NCBI GenBank assembly: GCA_902588315.1 | Contig: CACIOP010000001.1 | Coordinates: 62,001 to 126,000, forward strand | Reading direction: 5' to 3' | Source of the DNA: an uncultured Pelagibacteraceae bacterium | Lineage (GTDB): Bacteria; Pseudomonadota; Alphaproteobacteria; Pelagibacterales; Pelagibacteraceae | Length of the DNA: 64,000 bases | Part shown: piece after piece, positions 19,420 to 34,213 of the stretch | How positions within the stretch are numbered: the first letter of the stretch is position 1 | Layout: the number at the start of each line of letters is the position of its first letter | The notes under the pieces: model-generated | Databases searched by the model: none | The model's input: only the letters and a program-made list of their open reading frames with translations | What the model was told of the DNA's origin: nothing | Made by a program: the position numbers and the translations under genes

Positions 19420-20187
19420 ATGAATTTAGGTTTTATTGGTACTGGAAAAATTGCAGCTTCAGTGATTACTGGAATATGTAAATCAAAAATTTCATATAAA
19501 AAAATCATTATTTCTCCAAGAAATAAAAAAATAGCTCTTGGGTTAAAAAGAAAGTTTAAAAAAATAGTTATTGCCAAGGATAATCAACAAATTGTAGATC
19601 AATCTAATTGGGTATTTTTATCTGTTACACCTACAGTCGGTGAAAAAATTATTAAAGATTTAAAATTTAAATCGACCCAAACGATTGTTAGTTTTATTTC
19701 GACAATTACTTTATCTCAATTAAAAAAAGCAATTAAAGTAAAAGCAAAAATTGTAAGAGCAATACCTCTTCCTCCAATTTCATTAAAAAAAGGCCCTGTA
19801 CCTATTTGCCCTCCTAATTCAAAAGTTAAAGCGTTTTTCAATAACTTGGGCACAACTGTAGAAATTAAGAATGAAAAATCGTCTATAAATTTTTGGTCAA
19901 CATCTGGAATGATGGCACCATTTTATGAGGTGTTAAGAGTTATGACTGATTGGTTGGTAAAAAGAGGGGTAAAAAGAAATAATGCTCAAAAATATATTAC
20001 TTCTTTATTTTTAGCTTTATCTGAGGATGCTGTCGTAAATTCAAAAGAAAATTTAAAGAATTTAGTAAAAGAGTCTCAAACGCCAAAAGGATTGAATGAG
20101 CAAGGTGTTAAAGAATTAACTAAAGCAGGTTTTTATAAATCTCTTGAAAGAACATTAAATAGTATTCACAAAAGACTAAATAAATAA
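19420..20187 (+). CDS. Pyrroline-5-carboxylate reductase-like protein
   Basis: NAD(P)-dependent imine reductase-like protein of 255 residues. The Rossmann motif GFIGTGKIAASVITGI is at residues 4-19 and the ProC-type dimer domain begins near residue 160. The C-terminal TPKGLNEQGVKELTKAGFY replaces the usual proline-synthesis motif with SPGGTT, marking a divergent alphaproteobacterial subfamily. It may reduce a cyclic imine other than pyrroline-5-carboxylate. It lies 32 bp after glaH and 5 bp before the second importer, suggesting a link to the same substrates. Confidence 0.78.
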   Translation: MNLGFIGTGKIAASVITGICKSKISYKKIIISPRNKKIALGLKRKFKKIVIAKDNQQIVDQSNWVFLSVTPTVGEKIIKDLKFKSTQTIVSFISTITLSQLKKAIKVKAKIVRAIPLPPISLKKGPVPICPPNSKVKAFFNNLGTTVEIKNEKSSINFWSTSGMMAPFYEVLRVMTDWLVKRGVKRNNAQKYITSLFLALSEDAVVNSKENLKNLVKESQTPKGLNEQGVKELTKAGFYKSLERTLNSIHKRLNK

Positions 20188-20192
20188 ATCAA

Positions 20193-20981
20193 ATGTCTGA
20201 AAATATTTTAGAGATTAATAATTTAAGTAAATATTTTGGTGGATTAGCTGCAGTTTCGGATTGTTCAATAAAAGTTAAAAGAGGAACAATCACTGGTATT
20301 ATTGGACCAAATGGATCTGGTAAAACAACTTTATTTAATTTAATTGCTGGAAACTTAAAATCCTCTGGTGGTAATGTTGTTTTTGATGATGAAAATATTA
20401 CTGATGTTCCATCTTATGAATTATTTTCTAAAGGTTTGTTAAGAACATTTCAAATTGCACATGAGTTTTCAAATTTATCTGTTTTAGAAAATTTAATGAT
20501 GGTTCCAGGAAATCAATCTGGAGAAAAAATAATGACAGCATTATTTAAACCAGGTTTAGTTGCAGAAGAGGAAGCTGTGGTTAAAGAGAAAGCGAAAGAA
20601 GTTGTTGAATTTTTAAATTTAGGACATTTATCAAATGAGCTTGCTGGAAATCTTTCAGGTGGACAAAAGAAATTATTAGAACTTGGAAGAACCATGATGG
20701 TTGATGCAAAATTAGTACTATTAGATGAAGTAGGGGCTGGAGTTAACAGAACTTTGTTAAAAGACCTTGGAACTGCAATAGAAAAGTTAAATAAAGAAAA
20801 AGGTTACACTTTTTGTATGATTGAACATGATATGGATTTTATTGGAAGATTGTGTGATCCAGTGATTGTAATGGCTGAAGGATCAGTTTTATTTGAAGGA
20901 AGTGTTGAGGAAGCAAAAAAAGATGAGAAAGTTATAGAGAGTTATCTTGGTAGAGGATCAAAACTAAAGGATACAAACTAA
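20193..20981 (+). CDS. Liv-type ABC transporter ATP-binding protein, LivG family (system 2)
   Basis: ATPase of 262 residues. Walker A GPNGSGKTT is near residues 37-45, the Q-loop region LLRTFQIAHEF near 84, the signature LSGGQKKLLELG near 152. Walker B reads VLLDEVGAGV, with Val replacing the usual Pro after DE. The switch histidine is in CMIEHDMDF. It opens a second importer whose genes run LivG, LivF, LivH, LivM, an order different from system 1. Its stop shares one base with the next start. Confidence 0.92.
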   Translation: MSENILEINNLSKYFGGLAAVSDCSIKVKRGTITGIIGPNGSGKTTLFNLIAGNLKSSGGNVVFDDENITDVPSYELFSKGLLRTFQIAHEFSNLSVLENLMMVPGNQSGEKIMTALFKPGLVAEEEAVVKEKAKEVVEFLNLGHLSNELAGNLSGGQKKLLELGRTMMVDAKLVLLDEVGAGVNRTLLKDLGTAIEKLNKEKGYTFCMIEHDMDFIGRLCDPVIVMAEGSVLFEGSVEEAKKDEKVIESYLGRGSKLKDTN

Positions 20982-21688
20982 TGGCATATTTTGAAGGAAT
21001 AGAAATGACAGGTGGTTATGGTAATGGTCCTGACATTATTAGTTCGTGTTCAGTAAATGTTAATAAAGGTGAAATAGTTTCTATTTTAGGTCCTAATGGA
21101 GCTGGTAAATCAACTGCCATGAAAGCAATGTTGGGTTTGCTAAATTTAAAATCTGGATCAGTAAAGATCGATGGTAAGGATATTTCAAAATTATCTCCTC
21201 AAGATCGAGTTAAAGAAGGTATTTCTTTTGTACCTCAGACTAAAAATGTTTTTGCAGGTATGACTGTTGAAGAAAATTTAGAAATGGGAGCATTTCTTGT
21301 TGAGGATGAAATAAAAAATATAATTGAGGAAATTTATGAATTGTTCCCAATTTTAAGAGAGAAAAGAAATCAGATGGTTGGTGAACTTTCTGGAGGTCAA
21401 AGACAACAAGTGGCTCTTGGTAGAGCTTTAATGATTAAACCTACAGTTTTAATGTTAGACGAGCCAACTGCAGGTGTATCACCAATTGTGATGGACGAAT
21501 TATTTGATCATATTGTAAAAGTAAAAAGAACAAACGTTGCTATCTTGATGGTAGAACAAAATGCAAAACAAGCATTAAGTATTTCAGATAGGGGCTACGT
21601 TCTGGTTACTGGAGAAAATCGTTATTCAGGAACTGGAAAAGAATTATTAGACGATCCAAGAGTAAGAAGCTCTTTTTTAGGAGGGTAA
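20981..21688 (+). CDS. Liv-type ABC transporter ATP-binding protein, LivF family (system 2)
   Basis: ATPase of 235 residues, standard length. Walker A GPNGAGKST is near residues 37-45, the signature LSGGQRQQVALG near 139, Walker B LMLDEPTAGVSP near 161 and the switch motif MVEQNAKQAL near 192. It overlaps the LivG-type gene by one base and is followed by the LivH-type permease after one base. It powers the importer served by the binding protein at 25345-26535. Confidence 0.93.
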   Translation: MAYFEGIEMTGGYGNGPDIISSCSVNVNKGEIVSILGPNGAGKSTAMKAMLGLLNLKSGSVKIDGKDISKLSPQDRVKEGISFVPQTKNVFAGMTVEENLEMGAFLVEDEIKNIIEEIYELFPILREKRNQMVGELSGGQRQQVALGRALMIKPTVLMLDEPTAGVSPIVMDELFDHIVKVKRTNVAILMVEQNAKQALSISDRGYVLVTGENRYSGTGKELLDDPRVRSSFLGG

Positions 21689-21689
21689 T

Positions 21690-22700
21690 ATGGATTTTGT
21701 AAATGCAATAATTCTTTTATTAAACTATATTTTCATTCCTGCATTAACTTATGGTTCTCAGTTAGCACTGGGTGCAATATTTGTAACACTTATCTATGGA
21801 ATTTTAAGATTTGCTAATTTTGCAACTGGTGACATGATGTCTTTTGGAACCATGGCTACGATCTTATTCACATGGTATTTTCAATCTTTAGGCGTCTCTT
21901 TAGGTGTTTTACCTACTGCTCTGTTAGCTATCCCATTTGGAATTATTTTTATGATTCTCTATATGCTTTTAATTGATAAATTTGTCTTCAAATATTACAG
22001 ACATCAGAAAAGCCCCCCAGTTCAATTTGCAATGGTAAGTATAGGTGTAATGTTTGTGACACAAGCCATAGTAAGAATAATAATTGGTCCCGGTGACAGA
22101 AGATTTTTTGATGGAGAAAAATTTATTATTAAGGCTCGAGAATTCAAAGAGATTACAGGTTTAAACGAAGGTCTCGCATTGAAATCAACTCAAGTAATAA
22201 CTATTTTTGTGACAATAGTTTTGGTCTCTTTATTGTTTTGGTTTTTAAATAGAACAAAAACTGGAAAAAGCATGAAAGCTTATTCTGATAATGAAGATCT
22301 TGCTTTGTTATCAGGTATTGATCCAAAAAAAATAGTTTTAGTTACCTGGGTTATTGCTGGAATTTTAGCAACTATTGGCGGTGCTTTGTATGGTTTAGAT
22401 AAAAGTTTTAAACCATTTACTTATTTTAATAATATGCTTCCTATTTTTGCTGCAGCAATTGTTGGAGGAATTGGAAATCCATTTGGAGCTTTTTTAGGTG
22501 GATATGTAATTGCTTTTTCAGAAATTTTATTAACTTATGCCTATAAGAAATTTTTTATGTATGTTTTACCAGAAAGTATGGAGCCAAATAGTTTAGTTCA
22601 GTTACTGTCTACAGATTACAAGTTCGCAGTCTCGTTCTCTATTCTTGTAATAGTTTTAATTTATCGACCTTCGGGAATATTTAAGGGGAAAGTATTGTGA
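21690..22700 (+). CDS. Liv-type ABC transporter permease, LivH family (system 2)
   Basis: Permease of 336 residues with about eight membrane segments. The signature LRFANFATGDMMSFGTM is near residues 39-55 and the coupling loop GKSMKAYSDNEDLALLSGID near 193. The permease ends RPSGIFKGKVL. It is slightly longer than system 1 LivH, with an extra loop around residues 125-150. Its stop overlaps the GTG start of the LivM-type gene (GTGA). Confidence 0.92.
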   Translation: MDFVNAIILLLNYIFIPALTYGSQLALGAIFVTLIYGILRFANFATGDMMSFGTMATILFTWYFQSLGVSLGVLPTALLAIPFGIIFMILYMLLIDKFVFKYYRHQKSPPVQFAMVSIGVMFVTQAIVRIIIGPGDRRFFDGEKFIIKAREFKEITGLNEGLALKSTQVITIFVTIVLVSLLFWFLNRTKTGKSMKAYSDNEDLALLSGIDPKKIVLVTWVIAGILATIGGALYGLDKSFKPFTYFNNMLPIFAAAIVGGIGNPFGAFLGGYVIAFSEILLTYAYKKFFMYVLPESMEPNSLVQLLSTDYKFAVSFSILVIVLIYRPSGIFKGKVL

Positions 22701-24067
22701 GAAAAAACCTAAATGTAATTGCAGCTTATAGTATCATGATGGTGCTCATTCTGATGGTTGGTATATTTCAGTCTTGGAACATAGCATTATCAATATTTAA
22801 CCTTTGTTTGATTTCTGCAGTTATGACAATGGGTGCAAATATTCAGTGGGGATATGCTGGCTTAATTAATTTTGGAATTATGGGTTATACAGCTTTAGGT
22901 GGTTTAGCTGCAGTATTGATATCTGTCGATCCTGTTCAAGAAGCATGGAGGGCAGGAGGTTTCGACATTCTAATGTCATTATGGCTCATAGTAGTAATGG
23001 TATTAGTTATAAGGTTTATTTTAAAAAGATTTGAAAAATCAAAAATAAGAACATACAGCATAGCTGCAATAATAATCTCAGGTATTTTACTTATTAGATT
23101 TTCTGCAGAGCCAGGCATAGAAGCAATTGAGGCAGTAGATCCAGCTAAAACTGGTTTCCTAGGAGGATTTGGATTACCAATTATATTTTCTTGGATAGTT
23201 GGAGCTCTCTTTGCAGGGGGTTTAGCTTTTATAGTTGGAAAAGTTGCGCTTGGTCTTAGAGCAGATTATTTAGCAATTGCCACTCTACTTATTTCTGAAA
23301 TTGTTATTGCAATTATTAAACACGAGGATTGGCTCACAAGAGGGGTCAAAAATGTTATTGGATTAAAAAGACCTGCACCTTATGAAGTAGATCTTCAAAC
23401 AACTGGTTGGTTTATAAACTTAGTTGAAAAGTTTAATTCAGGAAAATTAAGTGTAATTGAGAATTTAGCTGATAGACAAGCTGCTTTAAACCAACTTGTG
23501 ATTGAAGGATCTTCAGTATTTGTAAAACTGTGTTATTCAGGATTATTCTTAGTAGTAGTAATTATTCTTTTAATTTTAACTCAAAAAGCTCTTTATTCTC
23601 CCTGGGGAAGAATGATGAGAGCGATAAGAGATAATGAGGAAGCTGCAAATGCAATGGGTAAAAATGTTGTTAAGCAACATTTATTAATTTTTATTTTAGG
23701 CTCAGCTATAGTTGGAATTGCTGGTGCAATGTTGGTTACACAGGATGGTCTATTTACTCCAGGAAGTTATAGACCCATGAGATATACGTTCTTAATTTGG
23801 GTGATGGTAATTGTTGGAGGAAGTGGAAATAATTTTGGGGCAATTTTGGGAGGATTTGTTGTTTGGTTCTTATGGATTGAAGCAGCACCAATATCATTAT
23901 TTTTAATAAACTTTTTCACTGCGGGAATTCCTGAAACAAATGCACTTAAAGCTCATTTAATTGAAAGCGTTCCTTATTTCAGATTTTTACTGATGGGATT
24001 AGGATTGTTGTTTATAATGAGGTATCGACCTAAAGGTATACTTCCTGAAAAAATAGAAATAAAGTAA
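22697..24067 (+). CDS. Liv-type ABC transporter permease, LivM family (system 2)
   Basis: Large permease of 456 residues starting with GTG inside the LivH-type stop. The core motifs are NIQWGYAGLINFGIMGYTAL near residue 49, GLRADYLAIATLLISEIV near 188 and the coupling loop AIRDNEEAANAMGKNVVKQH near 310. It is longer than system 1 LivM (349) because of an extra membrane/loop region near 90-160 and a soluble insert near 220-270. Family members of this length exist in alphaproteobacteria. A 23-codon ORF follows after 5 bp. Confidence 0.9.
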   Translation: MRKNLNVIAAYSIMMVLILMVGIFQSWNIALSIFNLCLISAVMTMGANIQWGYAGLINFGIMGYTALGGLAAVLISVDPVQEAWRAGGFDILMSLWLIVVMVLVIRFILKRFEKSKIRTYSIAAIIISGILLIRFSAEPGIEAIEAVDPAKTGFLGGFGLPIIFSWIVGALFAGGLAFIVGKVALGLRADYLAIATLLISEIVIAIIKHEDWLTRGVKNVIGLKRPAPYEVDLQTTGWFINLVEKFNSGKLSVIENLADRQAALNQLVIEGSSVFVKLCYSGLFLVVVIILLILTQKALYSPWGRMMRAIRDNEEAANAMGKNVVKQHLLIFILGSAIVGIAGAMLVTQDGLFTPGSYRPMRYTFLIWVMVIVGGSGNNFGAILGGFVVWFLWIEAAPISLFLINFFTAGIPETNALKAHLIESVPYFRFLLMGLGLLFIMRYRPKGILPEKIEIK

Positions 24068-24072
24068 ACATA

Positions 24073-24144
24073 ATGAAATATATTATATTAGGTGCTGCTG
24101 CTGCTTGGGCTTTGTATATGGCTGATAAGTATTTATTCTTTTAA
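24073..24144 (+). CDS. Candidate 23-residue membrane microprotein
   Basis: ATG 24073 to TAA 24142-24144 encodes 23 residues beginning MKYIILGAAAAWALYMADKY, one hydrophobic alanine-rich segment with a positively charged start. It sits exactly in the gap between the LivM-type gene (5 bp upstream) and the MFS gene, whose start shares the last base of its stop (TAATG). This exact fit resembles the other coupled junctions in the window and argues for a translated gene. No known family is recognised and chance cannot be excluded at this length. Confidence 0.5.
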   Translation: MKYIILGAAAAWALYMADKYLFF

Positions 24145-25313
24145 TGAATAAAAATCTTTCGTTACTTATATTAAGCCAAATTTTCGCTTTTACAGCTGCA
24201 CCGGTCACCGTTTTTTTAAGCGGCATAATTGGTTCAAAATTTAGTCCAATAAAATCTTTAGCTACTCTTCCAATGGCTTTGTCAGTTCTTGGAATTGCGT
24301 TATTCGCTTTTTTTGCTGCAAAGCTAATGAGTATAATTGGACGAAAATTAGGTTTTATTTTTGCATCAATAGGTACATGTTTTGCATCTCTTTTAACTGC
24401 ATACTCTATAATTATAGAAAGTTTTGTCTTATATAACTTAGGATGCTTTTTAATTGGTGGAGGAATAGCTTTTAGCCATCAATATCGTTTTGCAGCAGTG
24501 GAGGTTGTGGATAAGGATTATGCACCAAAAGCAATTTCTATAATTTTGTTAGCAGGAATAGGTTCGGCTTTTATTGGTCCAAATATTGCAAACATTTCTA
24601 AAGGACTTATCTCAAATCATATGTATGCTGGTTCTTATATTGCACTCGCCATTTTATCTATCTCATCAACAATATTTTTAATTTTTTATCAGGAACCAAA
24701 AACGATATCTAGTAATGAATATAAAACTGGAAGAAGTTTTTTTGAGCTTATTTCTCAACCTAGATTTCTACAGGCGCTCGTAGCTTCAGCTTTTGCCTAT
24801 GCTGTAATGACTTTTTTAATGACAGCAACTCCTATAAGTATGCATCTGATGGAGAAAATAAGTTTAAGCAAGACTGGATTTGTTATTCAGCTTCATATAG
24901 CAGCCATGTTTTTACCTTCACTGGTTACAGGAAATTTAATTAAAAGATTTGGTCATAGTAAAATAATGTATGTGGGAGTTTTATTGTTTTTAGTCACAAT
25001 TATTACCAGTTTATTTGAACAGAATTATATTAACTATATGGTTGCACTTATTTTTCTGGGGCTAGGGTGGAATTTTTTATTTATATCAGGAACGAGCTTA
25101 CTTGTTTTGTGTTACAGAGAAGAGGAAAAATTTAGAGCTCAAGGGTATAATGATTTAATTGTTTATTCTATACAAGCATTAGCCAGTTTGTCTGCTGGAG
25201 TATTTCTTAGCTTAACTAGCTGGAAAACTATGAATTTAATATGTTTGATTTTTCTAATTATCATAGCTCTATCTACCATAAGAGCTGATTTAAAAAAAAA
25301 CCCCAGTAATTAA
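24144..25313 (+). CDS. Major facilitator superfamily transporter
   Basis: A 389-residue polytopic protein with about twelve membrane segments. The MFS loop motif between segments 2 and 3 is seen as AKLMSIIGRKLGFIF near residues 60-74. Other features are a GGGIAFSHQYRFAAVE stretch near 108 and the second-half LIKRFGHSKIMYVG near 267. Substrate is unknown. It starts one base inside the microprotein ORF, so it probably shares the transcript of importer system 2. Its TAA stop lies in the loop of the following terminator. Confidence 0.85.
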   Translation: MNKNLSLLILSQIFAFTAAPVTVFLSGIIGSKFSPIKSLATLPMALSVLGIALFAFFAAKLMSIIGRKLGFIFASIGTCFASLLTAYSIIIESFVLYNLGCFLIGGGIAFSHQYRFAAVEVVDKDYAPKAISIILLAGIGSAFIGPNIANISKGLISNHMYAGSYIALAILSISSTIFLIFYQEPKTISSNEYKTGRSFFELISQPRFLQALVASAFAYAVMTFLMTATPISMHLMEKISLSKTGFVIQLHIAAMFLPSLVTGNLIKRFGHSKIMYVGVLLFLVTIITSLFEQNYINYMVALIFLGLGWNFLFISGTSLLVLCYREEEKFRAQGYNDLIVYSIQALASLSAGVFLSLTSWKTMNLICLIFLIIIALSTIRADLKKNPSN

Positions 25314-25328
25314 ATTACTGGGGTTTTT
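25301..25328. terminator. Bidirectional intrinsic terminator between convergent genes
   Basis: CCCCAGTAAT (25301-25310) pairs with ATTACTGGGG (25314-25323) around a 3-nt loop that is the TAA stop of the MFS gene. Five T follow on the plus strand and nine A precede (25292-25300), which form a T-tract on the minus strand. It therefore ends both the MFS transcript and the binding-protein transcript coming from the other side. Confidence 0.92.
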
Positions 25329-25344
25329 GAATTAAGATAAAAAA

Positions 25345-26535
25345 TTATCTTTGTTTTTTAGTTTTGAATTTTCCACCTTTAACTTCTTGTTCTAAGAAAG
25401 AACCTTCAGCTTCACCAACACTAGTAAAAGTTACTCCAGTAGCACCTTCGTAATTAATCTTTTTACCTTTTGCTAGTAAGTCTAAACCTTTCTTAAGTTC
25501 ACCTGGATAAATTTTAGTTCCAGGAGCATTAGCAACATCCATTACATTTTTTGCAATTGATGCTCTGTCAGCAGAATTACCTGCTTGCATTGCAAGAACG
25601 ATTAAAGCAGCTGCATCGTAAGATTCACCTGTGTAAGGACCAGAAGCTTCTACACCCCCAGCTTTTGCAACTTCAGCAAATATACCTGCACCTTTACCAG
25701 TAGAACCTGGTAATGATCCAAATGATTTACTTAAATCTTTTCCGAATGCATCAACTAAAGATTGACCAATCATACCATCTGATAAAATAAATCTATCAAA
25801 CGCACCAGAGTCTAAAGAAGCTTGAATAATTCCTTTTCCTCCTTGGTCAAGATAACCAATAACTGCTACAGCATCACCACCAGCAGAAGCAAGAGTTGCT
25901 ACTTCAGATGAGTAATCTGCTTTTCCATCTTCGTGAGCAGTTACAGTTGTAACTTTAATACCATGAGCCTCAACTGCTGCTTTGTAAACATCAGCTAAAC
26001 CTTTACCATAGTCATTGTTAGTATAAGTGATTGCAACACTTTTTACTTTTCTGTCTTTAGTTATATCAGCTAAAATTTGACCACCTCTAGCATCAGATGG
26101 AGCAGTTCTAAAGAAATACCCTTTGTCATCTAGAGTTGTTAATCCTGGAGAAGTAGCTGAAGGTGAAATCATTACTACACCATTTGGTACAGCAACGTTA
26201 GTTGCGATAGCACCAGTTACACCTGAACAGTCTGCTCCCATAATTGCAGCTACACCACCTGAAATTAAACCTTCAGCTGCAGCTGTTGCCGCTGCTGAGT
26301 CAACACAAGTTGAGTCTGCTCTTACTGGCTCAATTTTTTTTCCACCTAATAGCGAACCTGAGTCAGAAGCTTCTTTAAATGCAAGCTCTGCAGATGCAGC
26401 CATAGCTGGAGTTAGAGATTCAATAGGACCAGTGAATCCTAAGATGATCCCCATTTTAATCGAATGTCCGTCTGCCATTACATTTGAACCAAAACTTGAT
26501 ACAAACATAAATACAGCGATAAATAGTTTTCTCAT
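25345..26535 (-). CDS. Branched-chain amino acid-type ABC transporter substrate-binding protein (system 2)
   Basis: LivJ/BraC-like periplasmic binding protein, 396 residues from ATG 26535, which has an AGAGGAAG ribosome-binding site. A longer frame to 26559 adds eight residues before the signal peptide and is rejected. The signal peptide covers about residues 1-21, ending NVMADG. The mature start IKMGIILGFTGPIESL, IMGADCSGVTGAIATN and GPYTGESYDAAALIVLAM are typical. It converges on the system 2 ATPase/permease genes and is presumably their binding protein, expressed from its own promoter. Confidence 0.9.
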   Translation of the reverse strand: MRKLFIAVFMFVSSFGSNVMADGHSIKMGIILGFTGPIESLTPAMAASAELAFKEASDSGSLLGGKKIEPVRADSTCVDSAAATAAAEGLISGGVAAIMGADCSGVTGAIATNVAVPNGVVMISPSATSPGLTTLDDKGYFFRTAPSDARGGQILADITKDRKVKSVAITYTNNDYGKGLADVYKAAVEAHGIKVTTVTAHEDGKADYSSEVATLASAGGDAVAVIGYLDQGGKGIIQASLDSGAFDRFILSDGMIGQSLVDAFGKDLSKSFGSLPGSTGKGAGIFAEVAKAGGVEASGPYTGESYDAAALIVLAMQAGNSADRASIAKNVMDVANAPGTKIYPGELKKGLDLLAKGKKINYEGATGVTFTSVGEAEGSFLEQEVKGGKFKTKKQR

Positions 26536-26642: not shown

Positions 26643-28124
26643 TTATCTTATTGAGAAAGGGTCTAAAGAAGGTTCGTCAGAGGTATAGAACCATGTTGTT
26701 TTTACCCTTGTGTAGTCTTTAATTGAATCAATTCCTGCTTCTTTTCCATACCCACTATCTTTGATACCTCCAAAAGGGGCAGAGGGTGAAATTAATCTAT
26801 AAGTATTTACAAATGTTATTCCTGCGCGGATAGCATTAGATACCCTCATGCCTCTTGCAAGATCACTAGTATAAACACCTGAAGAAAGACCATATTGATT
26901 GTCGTTCATTAATTCTATTACCTCTTTTTCAGTATCAAATTTCATCACTGATAAAACAGGTCCGAAAAGTTCGTTTTCAGCAGCCGGTAAATTATGATTT
27001 TCACACTCAATAATTGTTGGGGGGAAATAATAACCTTTATTTGAAAAAGGATGTCTTTTACCACCGCATTTAATTTTTCCACCTTGTTCAACAGTTAATT
27101 TAATATTTTTTTCTATTACTTCTAATTGTTTAAAGTTACTTAAGGGACCCATTTCAGTATCAGAATCCATTGGAGCACCTATTTTAATTTTTTCTGCTCT
27201 TGATGCTAACTTATCTAAAAATTCCTTATAAATTCCTTTTTGTAAGTATAACCTTGAACCTGCTATACAACTTTGACCACTTGCTCCAAATATTCCAGCA
27301 GTTATTCCATTAATTGCATTTTCTTGTTTAGCATCATCAAAAACAGCTACAGGACTTTTTCCACCTAACTCTAAACTCACCTCAGATAAATTTTCTGCAG
27401 AGTTTCTAATTATATGTCTTGCAGTTTCAGGACCTCCTGTAAAAGCTACTTTCTCAACTAAGTTGTGAGTAGTTAAAGCTTTACCACAAGGATCTCCAAA
27501 ACCAGAAACTACATTTACCACACCTTTTGGTATTCCAGTTTCTTCCACTAACTTCGCAAACTCAAACATAGTTGCTGGTGCTAATTCAGAACATTTAATT
27601 ACTACTGTATTACCCATAGCTAAAGCAGGAGCAACTTTTGTTGCAGTTAAAAACATTTGAGAATTCCAAGGAATGATAGCTGCAATAACACCTATTGGAA
27701 TTCTTGTTGTGATCGCTTGAATATTTGGTTTATCTATAGGAAGAACTGTTCCCTCAACTTTGTCAGCTAAACCTGCATAGTAATCATAATATTCTGCAAT
27801 ATATTTTGCTTGTTGATAAGTTTCTCTGTAGAGTTTTCCTGTATCAATGGTTTCAATCTTTCCTAATAATTCAGAATTTTCTCTAAGTTTATTTCCAATG
27901 GCTCTTAAATATTTTGCTCTATCTCTTGCAATCATTTTTGGCCATTCACCTTCAAAAGCTTTTTGTGCAGCTTTTACAGCTCTATCCACATCATTTGCGC
28001 TAGCTTCAGGTACTACAGCCCAAGGCTTATTGTTTTCTGGATTTAAAGTTTCAAAAGTTTTTTTTGTATCAGAGTCTACCCACTGACCATCTATATACAT
28101 TTGATATTTTTTTAATTCAGGCAT
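26643..28124 (-). CDS. NAD(P)-dependent aldehyde dehydrogenase
   Basis: ALDH superfamily enzyme of 493 residues that oxidises an aldehyde to the acid. The catalytic Cys286 is in GASGQSCIAGS and the general-base Glu is in SLELGGKSPVAVF near 252; the NAD-binding IPWNSQ region and the C-terminal SGYGKEAG motif are present. It is the last gene of a four-gene minus-strand operon and overlaps the hydrolase gene by 8 bp. In trigonelline-type pathways such an enzyme oxidises the semialdehyde made by ring opening, which is a possible role here. Confidence 0.88.
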   Translation of the reverse strand: MPELKKYQMYIDGQWVDSDTKKTFETLNPENNKPWAVVPEASANDVDRAVKAAQKAFEGEWPKMIARDRAKYLRAIGNKLRENSELLGKIETIDTGKLYRETYQQAKYIAEYYDYYAGLADKVEGTVLPIDKPNIQAITTRIPIGVIAAIIPWNSQMFLTATKVAPALAMGNTVVIKCSELAPATMFEFAKLVEETGIPKGVVNVVSGFGDPCGKALTTHNLVEKVAFTGGPETARHIIRNSAENLSEVSLELGGKSPVAVFDDAKQENAINGITAGIFGASGQSCIAGSRLYLQKGIYKEFLDKLASRAEKIKIGAPMDSDTEMGPLSNFKQLEVIEKNIKLTVEQGGKIKCGGKRHPFSNKGYYFPPTIIECENHNLPAAENELFGPVLSVMKFDTEKEVIELMNDNQYGLSSGVYTSDLARGMRVSNAIRAGITFVNTYRLISPSAPFGGIKDSGYGKEAGIDSIKDYTRVKTTWFYTSDEPSLDPFSIR

Positions 28125-28905
28125 TATTTATATGTTTCATTATTGCATTATTTACTTCGTCTGCATATTCAATAGTGCATAGATGTTTTCCATTTTTGAT
28201 TTCAACATATGTTGAATTTTCTATATCTTTATTTAAATTTTTAGACATATCAGGTGTAGATCCTGGATCATCCGATCCTGTTATTATTAAAGTATTTGTT
28301 TTTATATTTTTTATATTTTCAAGATTGTCCTTATAGTTTGCAAATACCTCATAAGATTTAATAAAATTTTCTTGATCAATTCCTTTCTTGTTAAGAATTT
28401 TCATAAACTCATCATATAACTCAGGATTTTGTTCAAGGTATTTATCTGAAAACCATCTCTTCATTGCCATTTGAGATATTGGCATATTTTTTTTTGCCAA
28501 ATTCACTCTATCAATTACATTTTGTCTTTCCTCTGCTGTCCTTTGATATGTAGTGGATATTAGAGTTAAAGAATTTAAATAATTTTCATATTTTGAAGCA
28601 AATTCAATTGCAATCAAAGATCCGATAGAAAAACCAATTAAATTAAATTTTTCTATCTTTAGGTTTTTTACTAAATTTGATAATTGATCAATAAAATTTT
28701 CCATTGATAAATTTGGCTTTTTAAAAGGTGTTTTTCCATGTCCCAACAGATCATAAGTTATAAAGGAATTGTTCTTAAAAAATTCAATTTGTGGTTTCCA
28801 CATTTGTTGATTTAAACCAACACCATGAATAAAGATTATTGGTAAAGAATTTTTGTTGTTAAAATAATAATGATTTTGATCGTTATCAAAATTGTAAGAC
28901 ATCAA
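28117..28905 (-). CDS. Alpha/beta-fold hydrolase
   Basis: A 262-residue hydrolase with the oxyanion region PIIFIHGVGLNQQMW near 23-37, the nucleophile serine in GFSIGS near residue 95, the acid in GSDDPGS near 215 and the histidine in NGKHLCTIE near 240. Substrates of this broad family range from esters to ring-fission products. It abuts the DUF1185 gene upstream and overlaps the aldehyde dehydrogenase by 8 bp. Within this operon it is a candidate for hydrolysing an N-formyl/enamide or lactone intermediate (inference). Confidence 0.85.
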   Translation of the reverse strand: MMSYNFDNDQNHYYFNNKNSLPIIFIHGVGLNQQMWKPQIEFFKNNSFITYDLLGHGKTPFKKPNLSMENFIDQLSNLVKNLKIEKFNLIGFSIGSLIAIEFASKYENYLNSLTLISTTYQRTAEERQNVIDRVNLAKKNMPISQMAMKRWFSDKYLEQNPELYDEFMKILNKKGIDQENFIKSYEVFANYKDNLENIKNIKTNTLIITGSDDPGSTPDMSKNLNKDIENSTYVEIKNGKHLCTIEYADEVNNAIMKHINNA

Positions 28906-29490
28906 TTAGTTATCGATACCCATCTCTTTCATATCTTGATATCTATCACCCGTTCTTGCATGAGCTCGTCCAGTTGGAGCGCCTCCAATTGCAACAACTA
29001 TTTCATCTTCATTAGGTGCATCATGAATTGTAAATTCATGCGTTAGATAAAAAGGTCTTAATCCAGCATCAGTTTTATGCATCATTGGAATTGAAATTTT
29101 TGCTCCCGCAGGACCTCTAGTGTTAGTAAAACTTAAATAAGAAGTTCCACCAACGGCATCTCTAAATTTATTTCCAAATCTTAAAGTATGAATAAATGCA
29201 GATGCATGTTCTATTTCACCATTTAATCCAACCATCGCAGATTTCCCATAAGCTAAAATTTTTTCACCTGATCCAATTTCTTTTGTTAATTCTGGCACTA
29301 AAAGATCTCCTAATTGAGGTGCAAGATCTAGTATTTCTGGTTTTAAATCTTCTACAAAACCTTTTCCAGCCCAAGGGTTTTCTATAACAGCTGCAACCGA
29401 AACTAGCAGAACAGGCTCTTTAGCTTTTTTTCCACCTTCAATAAAAGTTTTATCTACAAATTTAGCAAATTTTCTAAGTTTTAAATCCAT
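28906..29490 (-). CDS. DUF1185 (amino acid synthesis family) protein
   Basis: A 194-residue protein of the DUF1185/AA_synth family, recognised from VAAVIENPWAGKGF near residues 32-45, YGKSAMVGLNGEIEHASAFI near 102-121, and HDAPNEDEIVVAIGGAPTGR near the C-terminus. The family name implies amino acid synthesis but no reaction is established. It lies between the LLM monooxygenase (3 bp) and the hydrolase (0 bp), so its function should belong to that pathway. Confidence 0.82.
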   Translation of the reverse strand: MDLKLRKFAKFVDKTFIEGGKKAKEPVLLVSVAAVIENPWAGKGFVEDLKPEILDLAPQLGDLLVPELTKEIGSGEKILAYGKSAMVGLNGEIEHASAFIHTLRFGNKFRDAVGGTSYLSFTNTRGPAGAKISIPMMHKTDAGLRPFYLTHEFTIHDAPNEDEIVVAIGGAPTGRAHARTGDRYQDMKEMGIDN

Positions 29491-29493
29491 TTA

Positions 29494-30660
29494 TTAGCTA
29501 GCTCTTTGAATGTTCGTATCTATTGGTTTTATATTTGGAATAACTTCTTCTGTAAATAATTTGATGCTTCTCATGCAGTCTTCGTGTTTAATTCCTGGAA
29601 AGTTAGACCAGACTTGTAAATTTTGAAGATTTAATTCTTGTTGAAGTTCTTTTATTTTTTCTATTACAAACTCAGGTGTTCCAAATAAAAGATTTCTTTT
29701 ATGAAGAAATTCATAATTTAATAAATCTAGCTTATTTTTCGTCTCTGGTAATTTTTCATCAGGGTCCATATGATTTCCTAAACCTCTCCAATGACAAACC
29801 CATCTCATATAATTTACAATATGTTCTCCAGCCATTTTTTCAGCCTCTTCCATAGTTTCTGCAACAAACATATCTCTAACCAAACTAATACCTTCCCCTA
29901 GTGGTACATCTCTATTTTCAGCTTTAGATTTTGCCTCTTTATAAATTTCAAATCTTTTTTTCAAAGCTTTTACAGTTGGTATCCACATAATTGTATTAAG
30001 CCCATTTTCTGCTGCCCACTGAATTGATCTTTCTCCATCAACTACTTGAGAAATTGGTGGGAAAGGTTTTTGATAAGGTTTTGGTAATACAGATATTTGT
30101 TTTAATTCGTTTGTTTTTAAATCTACAATATTTTCTTTTGGAGGACTCATATCGTGTTGCCAAATGAAATTAGGAGATGGATAAGTATAGAATTCGCCCT
30201 GGTGAGAGAAGAAATCTTCAGACCATGCTTTTTTCATTATGTCCAATGTTTCAGAAAATAGTCTAAAATTTTTTGCTTGGTCTTTTAAGTCAGCTTCTTT
30301 GTTCATGTTAATAGCTTCTCTACCATAAACTCCTCTACCAATACCCACTTCAACTCTTCCTTTTGACATTTGGTCAAGGGTAGCAATATCTTCTGCAAGT
30401 CTTATAGGATTATGAAATGTAATTACGTTACAAGCTTGTCCTAAACGAATATTTTTAGTTCTTGCAGCAGCATCAGTGCACATCATTAGTGGATTGGTAC
30501 ACGACTCCATTCCTTCATGATTAAAATGATGTTCGGTATACCAAATAGAATTCCAATTATTTTGATCACAATATTCAGTGATCTCTCTAGCTTCATCTAA
30601 AAGTTGGGTATAAGGTTTTTTATCCCAATTAGTAGTGTTACAAAAATATCCAAAGTTCAT
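29494..30660 (-). CDS. LLM-class flavin-dependent monooxygenase
   Basis: Luciferase-like (F)MN-dependent monooxygenase, 388 residues from ATG 30660. That start has a strong AAAGGAGG element; an in-frame extension to 30702 crosses it and is rejected. Family features are MNFGYFCNTTNW at the start, WYTEHHFNHEGM near 40, LGQACNVITFHNPIRLAEDI near 78 and GRVEVGIGRGVYGREA near 106. The enzymes use reduced flavin and O2 to insert oxygen, including opening N-heterocycles (TgnB, RutA). No flavin reductase gene is adjacent. It is the first gene of the operon with DUF1185, hydrolase and ALDH. Confidence 0.88.
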   Translation of the reverse strand: MNFGYFCNTTNWDKKPYTQLLDEAREITEYCDQNNWNSIWYTEHHFNHEGMESCTNPLMMCTDAAARTKNIRLGQACNVITFHNPIRLAEDIATLDQMSKGRVEVGIGRGVYGREAINMNKEADLKDQAKNFRLFSETLDIMKKAWSEDFFSHQGEFYTYPSPNFIWQHDMSPPKENIVDLKTNELKQISVLPKPYQKPFPPISQVVDGERSIQWAAENGLNTIMWIPTVKALKKRFEIYKEAKSKAENRDVPLGEGISLVRDMFVAETMEEAEKMAGEHIVNYMRWVCHWRGLGNHMDPDEKLPETKNKLDLLNYEFLHKRNLLFGTPEFVIEKIKELQQELNLQNLQVWSNFPGIKHEDCMRSIKLFTEEVIPNIKPIDTNIQRAS

Positions 30661-30765
30661 AAAGCCTCCTTTAAAAATTAATTTAAAGACGACCGATCCC
30701 ACTTTCGTAAATTTTTGAATTTAACGACGAGTTATGTATCGCTTTATATTTAAACCTTATTATTA
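30661..30765 (-). promoter_or_regulatory. GC-richer leader upstream of the LLM operon
   Basis: This 105-bp spacer between the oxygenase stop and the LLM start is unusually GC-rich for the window in its centre (GACGACCGATCCCAC on the plus strand). On the minus strand CGTTAAATT can pair with AATTTACG (one bulge), flanked by TCGTCG and GGTCGTC elements that repeat GTCG. The ribosome-binding site AAAGGAGG follows. A structured 5' leader or operator is plausible. I do not recognise a known riboswitch class. Confidence 0.35.
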
Positions 30766-31734
30766 CTAACGTTGATATTCAATAAATTTCTTTAAGGATT
30801 TGTTAAGAAATTTCTCATAAATTGGACCATTATTTTTGAATTTGCTACCATTTAAAAATGATTGGTTCATTTTGAAATCATAGGAAGGTTCAAAGAAAAA
30901 AGGAACAGAGAGTCTTTTACTTTTATTCCACAAAACTCTGTGATTAGTTGCTTTAAATCTTCCTTTGCTTAGAAACTCCAAAGCTTTACCAGTGTTTACT
31001 ACTAAAGCTTTTTTGTTAAATGGTACATCATACCATTTTTTATTTTTTCTATTTTGTACCTGCAATCCACCTTTTCTATCTTGATAGAGAACTGTGAATA
31101 TACCACTATCAACATGCGTTTCACATCCAAGAGCAACCCCATCTTGTTTAGATATTTCTACCGGTTTTGTCTGATTAGGATAATAATTAAATCTTAATGT
31201 GCTTAATGTTTTTAATCTTGAAAAAGCTATACTAGAAATATCAGGATTTTTTTTATTAAGTTTTATTACACTTTTAAATAAGGTTTCACTCAATCTATAA
31301 ATATTATCAAAATATTTGTTTAAAATATTTATTGAACTTTTTTTAAAACACTCATCTAGTTTAAGAAATTCTATGTATTGATTATTTAGATTTGAAGAAT
31401 ATTTTTTAGTTACTTTTAAATCACCTATATCCAAACCTTCTTTTCCGTTTACATCATTAGGAAAATATCCTCTGTAAAGATTTTTATTTTTTTTATTCCA
31501 TTTTTTAGGTGATAATTTTCTTTTCTTACTGTCTGGTAAATTAAAAAATTTATTCCCAACTTCGCATGTTTTTTTAATTTCTTTTAGATTAATTCCATGT
31601 CCAGTAATTTGAAAAAATCCTACATTGACACAAGCTTTTTCAATTTCTTTAATTGTTTTAAATGCATTTTGAGTTTCAAAATTATTTTTTATTAAAGAAG
31701 AAATATTAATTGTTGGTATAAAATTCTTGCTCAT
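30766..31734 (-). CDS. Isopenicillin-N-synthase-like Fe(II)/2-oxoglutarate oxygenase
   Basis: Non-haem iron oxygenase of 322 residues. The N-terminal DIOX_N-like part has GFFQITGHGI near 37-46. The metal triad is His207 and Asp209 in ETHVDSG and His265 in NHRVLW, with the RLSVPFFFEP motif supplying the co-substrate arginine near 276. Family members hydroxylate or cyclise amino acids and many other small molecules. It is 105 bp upstream of the LLM gene on the same strand and overlaps the EamA gene by 4 bp. Substrate unknown. Confidence 0.88.
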   Translation of the reverse strand: MSKNFIPTINISSLIKNNFETQNAFKTIKEIEKACVNVGFFQITGHGINLKEIKKTCEVGNKFFNLPDSKKRKLSPKKWNKKNKNLYRGYFPNDVNGKEGLDIGDLKVTKKYSSNLNNQYIEFLKLDECFKKSSINILNKYFDNIYRLSETLFKSVIKLNKKNPDISSIAFSRLKTLSTLRFNYYPNQTKPVEISKQDGVALGCETHVDSGIFTVLYQDRKGGLQVQNRKNKKWYDVPFNKKALVVNTGKALEFLSKGRFKATNHRVLWNKSKRLSVPFFFEPSYDFKMNQSFLNGSKFKNNGPIYEKFLNKSLKKFIEYQR

Positions 31735-32684
31735 CTTCTAACTGGTGTTTCTGTTGCAATAAATTGATCTCTAACTCTCTCTCTCATGTAAATATAAATT
31801 CCAGCTGCTATAATACACGCAACACCAATAAACGTTCTAGTCGTTGGTACCTCATTAAATAAAAAGTAGCCAGGTATCATAGACATAATTATTAATGAGT
31901 ACTCAAACAAAGAAACAACGGAAGGTGATGCAACTATATATGCTGAAAAAATACAAACAAAAGCTATTGATGCAGCAAAACCAAAAAATAAAATAAATTT
32001 CCATGTATATTCAATATTTGAAAACCATTCTCTAAAGATGAATTGTATTGTTGGATCAAAGTTTGAATTATTAAGCTGACCACTACCCATAAAAATATAT
32101 AAAATTACACACAGTAATATTGCAATCAGATAAAAGTAATATAGTTGAGTGTTAACATCATCTTTATCAGATGTATATTTAGTGATAGTCATAGATGCAG
32201 CATAACAAAATGCACAAAAAACTGGTAAAAGACTTCGATATTCAAAGTCTGAAAAATTTGGATTTAAGACTATAAAAACGCCAACAAAACCAAAAACAAT
32301 TGCTGACCACCTTCTAATACCAATAGTTTCTTTTAAAAATAACTTTGCAAATATTGATACGAAAAAAGGGGAGGAAAAGAATAGAGCATTTGCTGTTGCT
32401 AAAGGCATAAAAGTTAGTGAGATAAAAAAAGCAGAAAAAGCAATAAAATGCAAAACCACTCTTAGTATTGTTAAAAAAGGATAGTGAGTTTTAAGAGAGA
32501 CTTTTTGTTTTCTGAATTTTATATAACCAAATAGCAAAATTGCTGCAACAAAATATCTTCCAAAAAATATTTCATATAAAGCTGCTTTTTCAAAAATGAA
32601 TTTAATTAAAGCATCCTGCATTGCAAAAAATGTCATTGCAGTAATAATTAAAAGTATTCCTTTTGAATTATTATTAGCGCCCAT
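31731..32684 (-). CDS. DMT/EamA-family transporter
   Basis: A 317-residue protein with about ten membrane segments in two EamA repeats; the start reads GILLIITAMTFFAMQDALIK near residues 9-28 and the second repeat PVFCAFCYAASMTITKYTS near 155. It resembles RarD/S-adenosylmethionine-type and riboflavin-type carriers in general layout, but the substrate cannot be assigned. Its stop overlaps the start of the isopenicillin-N-synthase-like oxygenase (ATGA), implying a joint role. Confidence 0.85.
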   Translation of the reverse strand: MGANNNSKGILLIITAMTFFAMQDALIKFIFEKAALYEIFFGRYFVAAILLFGYIKFRKQKVSLKTHYPFLTILRVVLHFIAFSAFFISLTFMPLATANALFFSSPFFVSIFAKLFLKETIGIRRWSAIVFGFVGVFIVLNPNFSDFEYRSLLPVFCAFCYAASMTITKYTSDKDDVNTQLYYFYLIAILLCVILYIFMGSGQLNNSNFDPTIQFIFREWFSNIEYTWKFILFFGFAASIAFVCIFSAYIVASPSVVSLFEYSLIIMSMIPGYFLFNEVPTTRTFIGVACIIAAGIYIYMRERVRDQFIATETPVRR

Positions 32685-32724: not shown

Positions 32725-33186
32725 TTATTTCTTTAATTTAGAAGAGAATAGAAGACCTTCGCTTGAAAATTTTGACTTATTTTCTTCAATAAAATCTTTC
32801 ATTAATTTTACTTTTTCTTCTTCAAATTCAGTAACTTTCCTTTTGCTTAAATCTATATATAGCGATATCCATTCCATAGAAGCTGAAAGTTTGTTAGTTT
32901 TTTGAGAAATCATTTCCATTTTTAAATGCAATCTTTTTTTATCATGATCAAAATAAGTCAGATTAACCTTGACTATTTCTCCCTCTTTTACCTCATTTAA
33001 ATATTTAGTATTAGTTTCAACAACCATTGTGCTTCTATTAAGATTTTTTGCTGCTGTTCCACCCATTTTAAATTTTTCAAGAGCAACTTCCCATGCTTGA
33101 TCAAAAACAAGCACATAATAAGCCATATTCATATGATTGTTGTAATCAACCCATTCTTTTTTTACCTCGAAAGTTTTTAATAACAC
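32725..33186 (-). CDS. Hotdog-fold thioesterase, betainyl-CoA thioesterase-like (CdhB)
   Basis: A 153-residue hotdog-fold acyl-CoA thioesterase. The active-site loop WVDYNNHMNMAYY is near residues 12-24 and KYLNEVKEGE plus KKRLHLKMEM match the pattern of CdhB, which releases glycine betaine from betainyl-CoA in carnitine breakdown. It starts one base after the stop of proV, a betaine importer ATPase, which supports a betaine/carnitine role. CdhA and CdhC are not in the window, so another acyl-CoA remains possible. Confidence 0.75.
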   Translation of the reverse strand: MLLKTFEVKKEWVDYNNHMNMAYYVLVFDQAWEVALEKFKMGGTAAKNLNRSTMVVETNTKYLNEVKEGEIVKVNLTYFDHDKKRLHLKMEMISQKTNKLSASMEWISLYIDLSKRKVTEFEEEKVKLMKDFIEENKSKFSSEGLLFSSKLKK

Positions 33187-33187
33187 T

Positions 33188-34213
33188 TTATGATCTTGTT
33201 AATGAAGACTGTAATTCTTGATTTGAAATGTATCCTTTTACATTTCCACTTTTATCAACCACTTCACAATTTGAATCAGAACAAACGATTTTTGGTAAAA
33301 AATCTTCTATAAATTCGTCTTCATTTACTTTTATTAAGTTTGATTTATCTATGTCATTAGCTTGATCAGCAGTTTTCATAATAATTTTTGCCTTTATAAC
33401 TTTTGCTCTATTCACATCTTTTACGAAAGCTTTTACATAATCATCAGCAGGGTTCATAATAATTTCTTCTGGAGTTCCTACTTGGACTAATTTTCCAGAG
33501 TTTAATATCCCGATATGATCACCCAATCTTAATGATTCATCTAGATCGTGAGTAATAAATACAATTGTTTTTTTTAGTTCTGCTTGAAGATCAATTAATT
33601 GTTTTTGCATATCACTTCTAATCAGAGGATCTAGAGCGCTGAAAGCTTCATCCATTAACATGATATCTGTATCAGTAGCTAATGCTCTTGCTAAACCAAC
33701 ACGTTGCTGCATTCCTCCCGATAATTGAGCGGGGTATTGATTTTCAAAACCAGTAAGACCAACTGCATCGATTTTTTCCATTGAGATTTTATTTCTTTCA
33801 TCTTCACCTTTGCCTTGCATTTCTAATCCGTAACCAACATTTTGAATTACTGTTTTATGTGGGAATAAACCAAATCTTTGAAATACCATGCTCATTTTAT
33901 GTCTTCTAAATTCAATAAGCTTATCTTTATCAAGTGACATTACATTCGTGCCCTCAACTAAAATTTCACCATCAGTTGGATCGATTAGTCTATTTAAATG
34001 TCTTATTAGTGTTGATTTTCCTGATCCTGATAAACCCATACAAACAAAGGTTTCTCCTTCTTCAATTTTAAGTGAAACATTATCTAATCCAACGGTATGA
34101 CCAGTTTGCTCTAGAATTTCGTCTTTTGTTGCACCATCTTTTACCATTGGTAGTACAGAAGAAGGGTTGTTTCCAAAAATTTTGTATACGTTGTTGATCT
34201 CAATTTTTGACAT
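33188..34213 (-). CDS. proV: Glycine betaine/proline-type ABC transporter ATP-binding protein (ProV/OpuAA)
   Basis: ATPase of 341 residues. The ProV-specific N-terminus has IFGNNPSSVLPMV followed by the helix before the ABC fold. Walker A GLSGSGKST is near residue 61, the signature LSGGMQQRVGLA near 164, Walker B MLMDEAFSALDP near 185 and the switch HDLDESLRLG near 219. The C-terminal 70 residues form a regulatory CBS-like tail. The permease (ProW) and binding protein (ProX) genes are absent here, so it must work with subunits encoded elsewhere. It forms an operon with the thioesterase. Confidence 0.9.
   Translation of the reverse strand: MSKIEINNVYKIFGNNPSSVLPMVKDGATKDEILEQTGHTVGLDNVSLKIEEGETFVCMGLSGSGKSTLIRHLNRLIDPTDGEILVEGTNVMSLDKDKLIEFRRHKMSMVFQRFGLFPHKTVIQNVGYGLEMQGKGEDERNKISMEKIDAVGLTGFENQYPAQLSGGMQQRVGLARALATDTDIMLMDEAFSALDPLIRSDMQKQLIDLQAELKKTIVFITHDLDESLRLGDHIGILNSGKLVQVGTPEEIIMNPADDYVKAFVKDVNRAKVIKAKIIMKTADQANDIDKSNLIKVNEDEFIEDFLPKIVCSDSNCEVVDKSGNVKGYISNQELQSSLTRS

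Follow-up and report, generated by a model that had tools for sequence, protein, structure and literature searches.

The operon studied here lies in a 64,000-nucleotide stretch from an uncultured Pelagibacteraceae bacterium (positions 62,001 to 126,000 of contig CACIOP010000001.1, assembly GCA_902588315.1; hereafter the window). Its four genes encode a flavin monooxygenase of the luciferase-like family (LLM), a DUF1185 protein, an alpha/beta hydrolase and an aldehyde dehydrogenase (ALDH). It is probably a catabolic operon of the same kind as the trigonelline (tgn) cluster of Acinetobacter baylyi and acts on an N-methylated pyridine carboxylate, with homarine or trigonelline as the likeliest substrates. 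This reading builds on the observed gene order, its conservation among relatives, and the similarity to the A. baylyi cluster, strong for the ALDH and DUF1185 proteins and weak for the hydrolase; the chemical steps and the substrate itself are all proposed by analogy with the tgn pathway. The original prediction of an N-heterocycle ring-opening pathway of the trigonelline kind is supported in part, by the clade of the ALDH, the grouping of the hydrolase with DUF1185-linked hydrolases and the TgnF family of the DUF1185 protein, and not by the LLM, which falls outside TgnB.

Similarity to the tgn cluster

A. baylyi DSM 14961 was recovered among the best 80 of 547 loci in a scan with an Acinetobacter LLM. 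Its single PF06684 gene stands in a cluster with the order DUF1185, hydrolase, flavin reductase (assigned by similarity to annotated ones), LLM and ALDH, followed by an NCS1-like transporter, a 388-aa open reading frame (ORF), a GabD-type succinate semialdehyde dehydrogenase (SSADH) and a 129-aa ORF. We take the letters TgnA to TgnE to apply to single genes of this cluster. The cluster, compared here in DSM 14961 and not in strain ADP1, is taken to be tgn because TgnB is a luciferase-family monooxygenase, according to a passage of PMC11354265, and TgnF a DUF1185 protein. A gene of the sarcosine-oxidase alpha (soxA) family lies near it (L059, 1817-4738). Clusters of type I, to which we count those of A. 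baylyi and Paraburkholderia, are annotated in Leisingera, Ruegeria and Pantoea, and the type II arrangement occurs in Rhizobium, Agrobacterium and Mesorhizobium, with ProXWV betaine transporter genes near the Agrobacterium cluster. As in type I clusters, DUF1185, hydrolase, ALDH and LLM genes are packed together in the window.

The ALDH is the clearest link to tgn. It is 51% identical to the ALDH of the A. baylyi cluster over 490 residues and 33% to the A. baylyi SSADH, and its identity to type I ALDHs is 50-53% compared with 40-41% for type II. In the ALDH tree (55 rows), the sequences of the window's order and the TgnC-type (type I) ALDHs form one clade (support 99, starred), of which one side (91) holds the window's order together with L320, L333, L334 and L339 and the other (88) type I with L160, L161 and L281; only type II and three other ALDHs lie outside. 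Identity and clade place the window protein among TgnC-type ALDHs, as a putative orthologue. GQSC and LELGG motifs are present in a motif scan, and the best relative in the PDB is a hydroxymuconic semialdehyde dehydrogenase (4go3). This is the single ALDH of the operon and it is closer to TgnC than to SSADH; unlike tgn, the operon holds no SSADH (TgnE), for which the rest of the genome was not searched. A TgnC-like oxidation of a ring-opened aldehyde is the proposed role.

The DUF1185 protein shares 54-61% identity with those of type I and II clusters (57-61% for type II) and 56% with the single PF06684 copy of A. baylyi. A passage of PMC7913881 describes HcdD, which represents DUF1185 in a 7-hydroxycoumarin cluster, as a homologue of TgnF, and TgnF as stimulating the TgnE-dependent oxidation of succinate semialdehyde in A. 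baylyi. On this similarity the window protein is predicted to be a TgnF-like accessory protein, and DUF1185, formerly viewed as the mark of a distinct pathway, is TgnF's own family. Relatives of known structure are 2QTP and 3BYQ, and the relevant parts of the structure paper (PMC2954203) give no substrate clue.

The hydrolase has a GFSIG nucleophile elbow in the motif scan and is 28% identical to its A. baylyi counterpart, 32% to that of Agrobacterium and 20% to RutD. In the hydrolase tree (63 rows), the 19 rows of the window group (100, starred) join the type II and other DUF1185-linked hydrolases (93, unstarred) and not those of type I (90). The protein is a candidate TgnD-like deformylase or hydrolase, proposed from the tgn counterpart. 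Type II clusters, which resemble the window in this wider hydrolase branch and in DUF1185, differ from it in their ALDH, in an LLM of the TgnB-containing clade, and in the presence of a reductase and a carboxymuconolactone decarboxylase.

Following the steps of the tgn pathway, the LLM, as the proposed ring-opening oxygenase, would be fed reduced flavin mononucleotide (FMN) by a reductase encoded elsewhere and open the ring beside the N-methyl nitrogen, yielding an N-formyl-N-methyl aldehyde. The ALDH would turn this aldehyde into the acid and the hydrolase would remove formate to release free methylamine or an N-methylamino acid skeleton, with DUF1185 assisting as TgnF does. Homarine would leave a 2-(methylamino)glutaconate/2-oxoglutarate skeleton and trigonelline succinate semialdehyde.

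Conservation, the thiamine-diphosphate enzyme and a mosaic locus

Relatives were searched in assemblies of 0.5-1.3 Mb, of which G012 consists of one 1.34-Mb contig. Of 37 genomes in the window's genus, the window's included, 14 have DUF1185, as do 5 of 24 genomes in a second family of the same order. The genes for DUF1185, hydrolase and ALDH are consecutive, in the same order and on one strand in all 19 of these loci, so the operon is not a chance arrangement.

The four-gene version in the window is a short form, as many relatives carry a thiamine-diphosphate (TPP) enzyme between LLM and DUF1185. The enzyme is linked to the operon in half (7/14) of the DUF1185-positive genomes of the genus, another difference from tgn. 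Its gene lies between LLM and DUF1185 in G004, G005 and G022-G025 (together with a methyltransferase gene in G024), and in G006 it follows the LLM at a contig end, with DUF1185 ending another contig. No linked copy was found in six genus genomes, the window's among them (G000, G002, G012, G015, G028, G030; the locus of G020 is cut); G012 and G000 have only paralogues at 28-31%. In the second family the enzyme is present in G038, G054 and G059, partial in G050 and absent from the operon of G039 (locus L042). Further relatives at 60-61% identity adjoin DUF1185 and hydrolase in three other alphaproteobacterial loci, in L333 with a reductase and ALDH and no LLM at the locus or in the preceding 13 kb, and in L334 and L339 with a type II LLM and ALDH. 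In L161 the TPP gene resembles that of the operon at only 20-25% and was not counted as linked.

The best NCBIfam matches of the TPP enzyme are sulfoacetaldehyde acetyltransferase (Xsc) and acetolactate synthase. Both assignments were rejected at 399.5 of 620 and 397.8 of 538 bits, respectively, and for none of the 25 NCBIfam families listed, of 54, does the enzyme reach the cut-off. In the motif scan, all six complete genus copies matched both the glutamate and the GDG motif, the L339 enzyme did not match the glutamate motif, and the three complete copies of the second family matched neither. One relative has a small methyltransferase gene between TPP enzyme and DUF1185 (L027, 7335-7964).

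The window copy itself looks recombinant. Its ALDH is nested among ALDHs of loci with the TPP gene (99, starred), its hydrolase groups with rows lacking it (99, starred), and its LLM does likewise at weaker support, with five such rows (89, unstarred). A 2-oxoglutarate (2OG)-Fe(II) oxygenase gene is found upstream in 7/7 genus loci with the TPP gene and in the window, 105 bp from the LLM, and in none of the five other genus loci without it, for one of which (L034) the visible upstream stretch is only about 0.5 kb; it is a possible extension of the operon. DNA identity to G006 in 400-bp steps is 81-97% across 20075-26474 (the Liv genes and their neighbours), 78-87% in the ALDH, 68% in the hydrolase and 76-80% in DUF1185. 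On the simplest reading, recombination would have brought a block from LLM to hydrolase, of the version without the TPP gene, into a site of the version with it, and a separate loss of the TPP gene may be the alternative. The close relative G006 has five ORFs in the interval from 2OG oxygenase to LLM (L357, 3127-8254), among them one flavin adenine dinucleotide (FAD) oxidoreductase and one DegT-type aminotransferase.

DUF1185 neighbourhoods outside the order

PF06684 was matched in 95 of 387 alphaproteobacterial genomes, in 94 above the cut-off. Our survey covered 123 stretches of 3.1 to 20 kb around such matches, contig-end-cut stretches included; not used were a partial match in G140, one below the cut-off in G117 and those in G000 and G272, and ten further stretches enter the counts only as L340-L342. 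Markers were found by tblastn with few reference proteins, which makes absences soft. The 27 tgn-type loci contained a hydrolase in 25 cases, ALDH in 19, LLM in 17, a reductase in 13 and a TPP enzyme in 3; hydrolase and ALDH occurred together in 19 and all three of LLM, hydrolase and ALDH in 17.

The other 96 loci are Sagittula-type. Like the window they have PF06684 with pyridine-type enzymes adjoining, here a 6-hydroxynicotinate reductase in 47 and UPF0280 in 52, but they differ in a DUF1185 only 31-36% identical to that of the window and in the combination of LLM, hydrolase and ALDH, which none of the 96 shows; 39 are without any survey marker or molybdenum (Mo)-hydroxylase. The position of this branch beside 6-hydroxynicotinate reductase also points to pyridines. 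DUF1185 in such loci (L049, 5110-9678; L220-L342) is often in tandem and next to 6-hydroxynicotinate reductase, UPF0280 and a Mo-hydroxylase, with the reductase or UPF0280 in 52/96; some neighbourhoods also hold a ring-hydroxylating dioxygenase and a Liv-type transporter, as in a pyridine-type pathway. This survey of DUF1185 neighbourhoods, proposed earlier as a check, tied the family to no other substrate class, with the DUF1185 protein of the coumarin cluster speaking to the contrary.

Window-type LLMs were found at E 1e-30 in 19 of 385 genomes of the class, the window's own included. In L160, from an alphaproteobacterium with a 4.8-Mb genome, the order is ALDH-hydrolase-DUF1185-LLM, with an LLM 55% identical to that of the window and, as neighbours, a PF01613 reductase, a Rieske oxygenase, a LysR regulator and a DAO-family oxidase, for which the best model is L-pipecolate oxidase, below cut-off. 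Within 12 kb, L161 has hydrolase, DUF1185 and ALDH genes along with two LLMs of the window type (44%). Outside the order there are therefore at least two cases in which the new LLM clade is linked to the same set of partners.

The divergent LLM and other evidence against a tgn-type pathway

Several results weigh against a pathway of the tgn kind, among them those on the LLM. In the LLM tree (70 rows), types I and II together form one clade (99, starred), and the window group with the LLMs of L160 and L161 forms a separate one of 22 rows (96, starred). The window LLM shares 24-27% identity over its whole length with LLMs of types I and II (27-31% in another comparison) and 27% with that of A. 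baylyi (33% over 162 residues). It was therefore rejected as a TgnB orthologue, and since it is not one, substrate or cleavage site may differ from tgn. The phylogeny that had been suggested as a check thus put the LLM in a clade of its own outside TgnB, and the clade's members in the tree include none of known function. An insertion of 26 columns (residues ~162-187) is without counterpart in type I and II LLMs in the alignment. An AlphaFold model (36 sequences, mean predicted local distance difference test score 71) had 7bip, 8cbb, 2i7g and luciferases as its best PDB matches; these luciferase-like and type II Baeyer-Villiger relatives gave no substrate clue.

The remaining points against concern the partners. 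The hydrolase is only 25-32% identical to those of type I and II, and 10 of the 27 tgn-type stretches have no LLM. Of 15 loci with a window-type or related LLM that were retrieved from outside the order, 13 are without the partner genes, and 43 genomes from the order of L160 yielded, when searched, no further example of its gene set. No TPP enzyme was seen by eye among the ORFs of the A. baylyi locus, which leaves the TPP step unexplained by the tgn analogy. The DUF1185 family alone is no proof of an N-heterocycle, given its presence in the coumarin cluster as HcdD. A flavin reductase gene, part of the A. baylyi cluster, is missing from the operon, and PF01613 has no match in the window's genome, which is about 83% complete and was not searched for other flavin-reductase families; the earlier remark that no flavin reductase is present holds to this extent. 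The LLM of the second family is preceded by a PdxH-like gene and by a gene for a 168-aa protein (L040, 4339-5463). The 168-aa protein was considered as a flavin reductase and rejected, with no Pfam match even at E 1. Finally, we found no substrate-specific gene, and according to a passage of PMC8269262 TgnA/TgnB are unlikely to act on homarine for steric reasons.

Alternative substrates and pathways

The divergent LLM and the TPP enzyme could mark a shift of the same chemistry to another substrate, such as a non-methylated pyridine, an N-alkyl imidazole or another marine betaine, for which we see roughly one chance in four. The separate LLM clade with its insertion fits this, as do the TPP relatives linked to DUF1185-hydrolase in L333, L334 and L339; the ALDH, grouped with TgnC-type ALDHs, and a DUF1185 of the tgn branch speak against it, as do loci that keep the other four genes in the absence of the TPP gene. 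A slightly better, still doubtful chance is given to a route distinct from tgn in a different sense, in which an LLM of another clade would work with TgnC-, TgnD- and TgnF-like enzymes and a TPP step new to trigonelline degradation, and two versions, with and without the TPP enzyme, would swap at one site by recombination, so that strains differ in the methylated heterocycle or product handled.

Pathways with other chemistry are far less probable. Desulfonation of a sulfonate or aliphatic compound by an SsuD-like LLM and an Xsc-like TPP enzyme would accord with the best NCBIfam matches of the latter and with a TauD gene close by in L025, yet we regard it as very unlikely: neither of those matches comes near its cut-off, the LLM reaches no better than E 0.01 against SsuD, and the TPP gene is missing from the site in the window copy. 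We know of no role of a TgnC-like ALDH or of DUF1185 in sulfonate pathways, which also counts against it. Even less probable is pyrimidine catabolism of the RutA type. RutA belongs to the LLM family, RutD is an alpha/beta hydrolase and RutF an FMN reductase, so that the catabolic rut operon of Escherichia coli likewise combines an LLM-type monooxygenase with a hydrolase of the alpha/beta fold. The match of the window LLM to RutA reaches only E 0.03, the hydrolase is less similar to RutD than to its A. baylyi and Agrobacterium counterparts and obtains 75.6 bits from the RutD model against a cut-off of 238.5, and ALDH and DUF1185 have no counterpart in rut. No isochorismatase or RidA family was matched among 10 Pfam-scanned ORFs around the operon, which thus lacks the combination of a RutA-type LLM with RutB/RutC. 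A relation of the LLM to RutA or SsuD was ruled out by these E-values and by identity; RutA, SsuD and RutD are preset outgroups in the LLM and hydrolase trees, which are no test of kinship to them.

For a pathway of the tgn kind on an N-methylated pyridine carboxylate, homarine is favoured over trigonelline on ecological grounds only, and no result here separates the two. A homarine study of 2026 is said to report a catabolic operon of five genes with a regulator, which small-genome ocean bacteria also have; the operon with the TPP enzyme has five genes too, a likeness in gene number. The window operon may already be described in that study. Titles and abstract starts of the papers among the matches listed do not name the operon. 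Homarine is abundant in marine plankton, as a passage of PMC8269262 states, and PMC13390433 states, citing a paper of 2026 (Nat Microbiol 2026;11:1531), that Mgd was lately reported to act in homarine catabolism; the relevant parts of PMC12817926 and PMC4213383 hold no substrate clue for the operon.

Homarine, like trigonelline, is a marine betaine. Should small-genome bacteria possess a ring-opening operon of their own, genomes would make it possible to test how much they contribute to this carbon and nitrogen turnover, and the DUF1185-hydrolase-ALDH set with an LLM would serve as a search marker. The linked TPP enzyme and the exchange of versions at one site would offer a handle on substrate range.

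Operon layout and neighbouring genes

The tight packing on one strand claimed for the four ORFs is borne out, with gaps of 3 bp between LLM and DUF1185 and 0 bp between DUF1185 and hydrolase and an 8-bp overlap of hydrolase and ALDH (Table 1). The LLM starts with ATG, and a GTG at 30702 is a possible longer start. The genome (1.12 Mb in 29 contigs) has one match each to PF06684 and PF00296 in a Pfam search.

Table 1. Genes of the operon and its neighbours in the window.
Feature	Length (aa)	Position	Strand	Pfam match
EamA-family permease, upstream of the 2OG oxygenase		31731-32684	minus	PF00892
2OG-Fe(II) oxygenase, upstream of the LLM		30766-31734	minus	PF03171/PF14226
LLM flavin monooxygenase (bacterial-luciferase family)	388	29494-30660	minus	PF00296, E 3e-46
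DUF1185 (AA_synth) protein	194	28906-29490	minus	PF06684, E 2e-64
Alpha/beta hydrolase		28117-28905	minus	PF00561, E 3e-22
ALDH	493	26643-28124	minus	PF00171, E 8e-161
Liv-type substrate-binding protein, downstream neighbour		25345-26535	minus	PF13458

The suggestion that the Liv-type binding protein supplies the substrate was not supported, as 34 of the 42 relatives lacking DUF1185 have this protein and so do 13 of the 19 that possess DUF1185. With its binding protein at least as common without DUF1185 as with it, the Liv transporter was rejected as a dedicated importer. G022 has a copy of the binding protein that is 99% identical and lies on a contig other than that of the operon. Unlike tgn, the window has no GntR regulator among the 10 neighbouring ORFs scanned. 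Further upstream (32725-34213) lies a quaternary-amine neighbourhood, with an ABC ATPase of the choline/betaine type and a thioesterase that matches the terminal part of the carnitine 3-dehydrogenase model.

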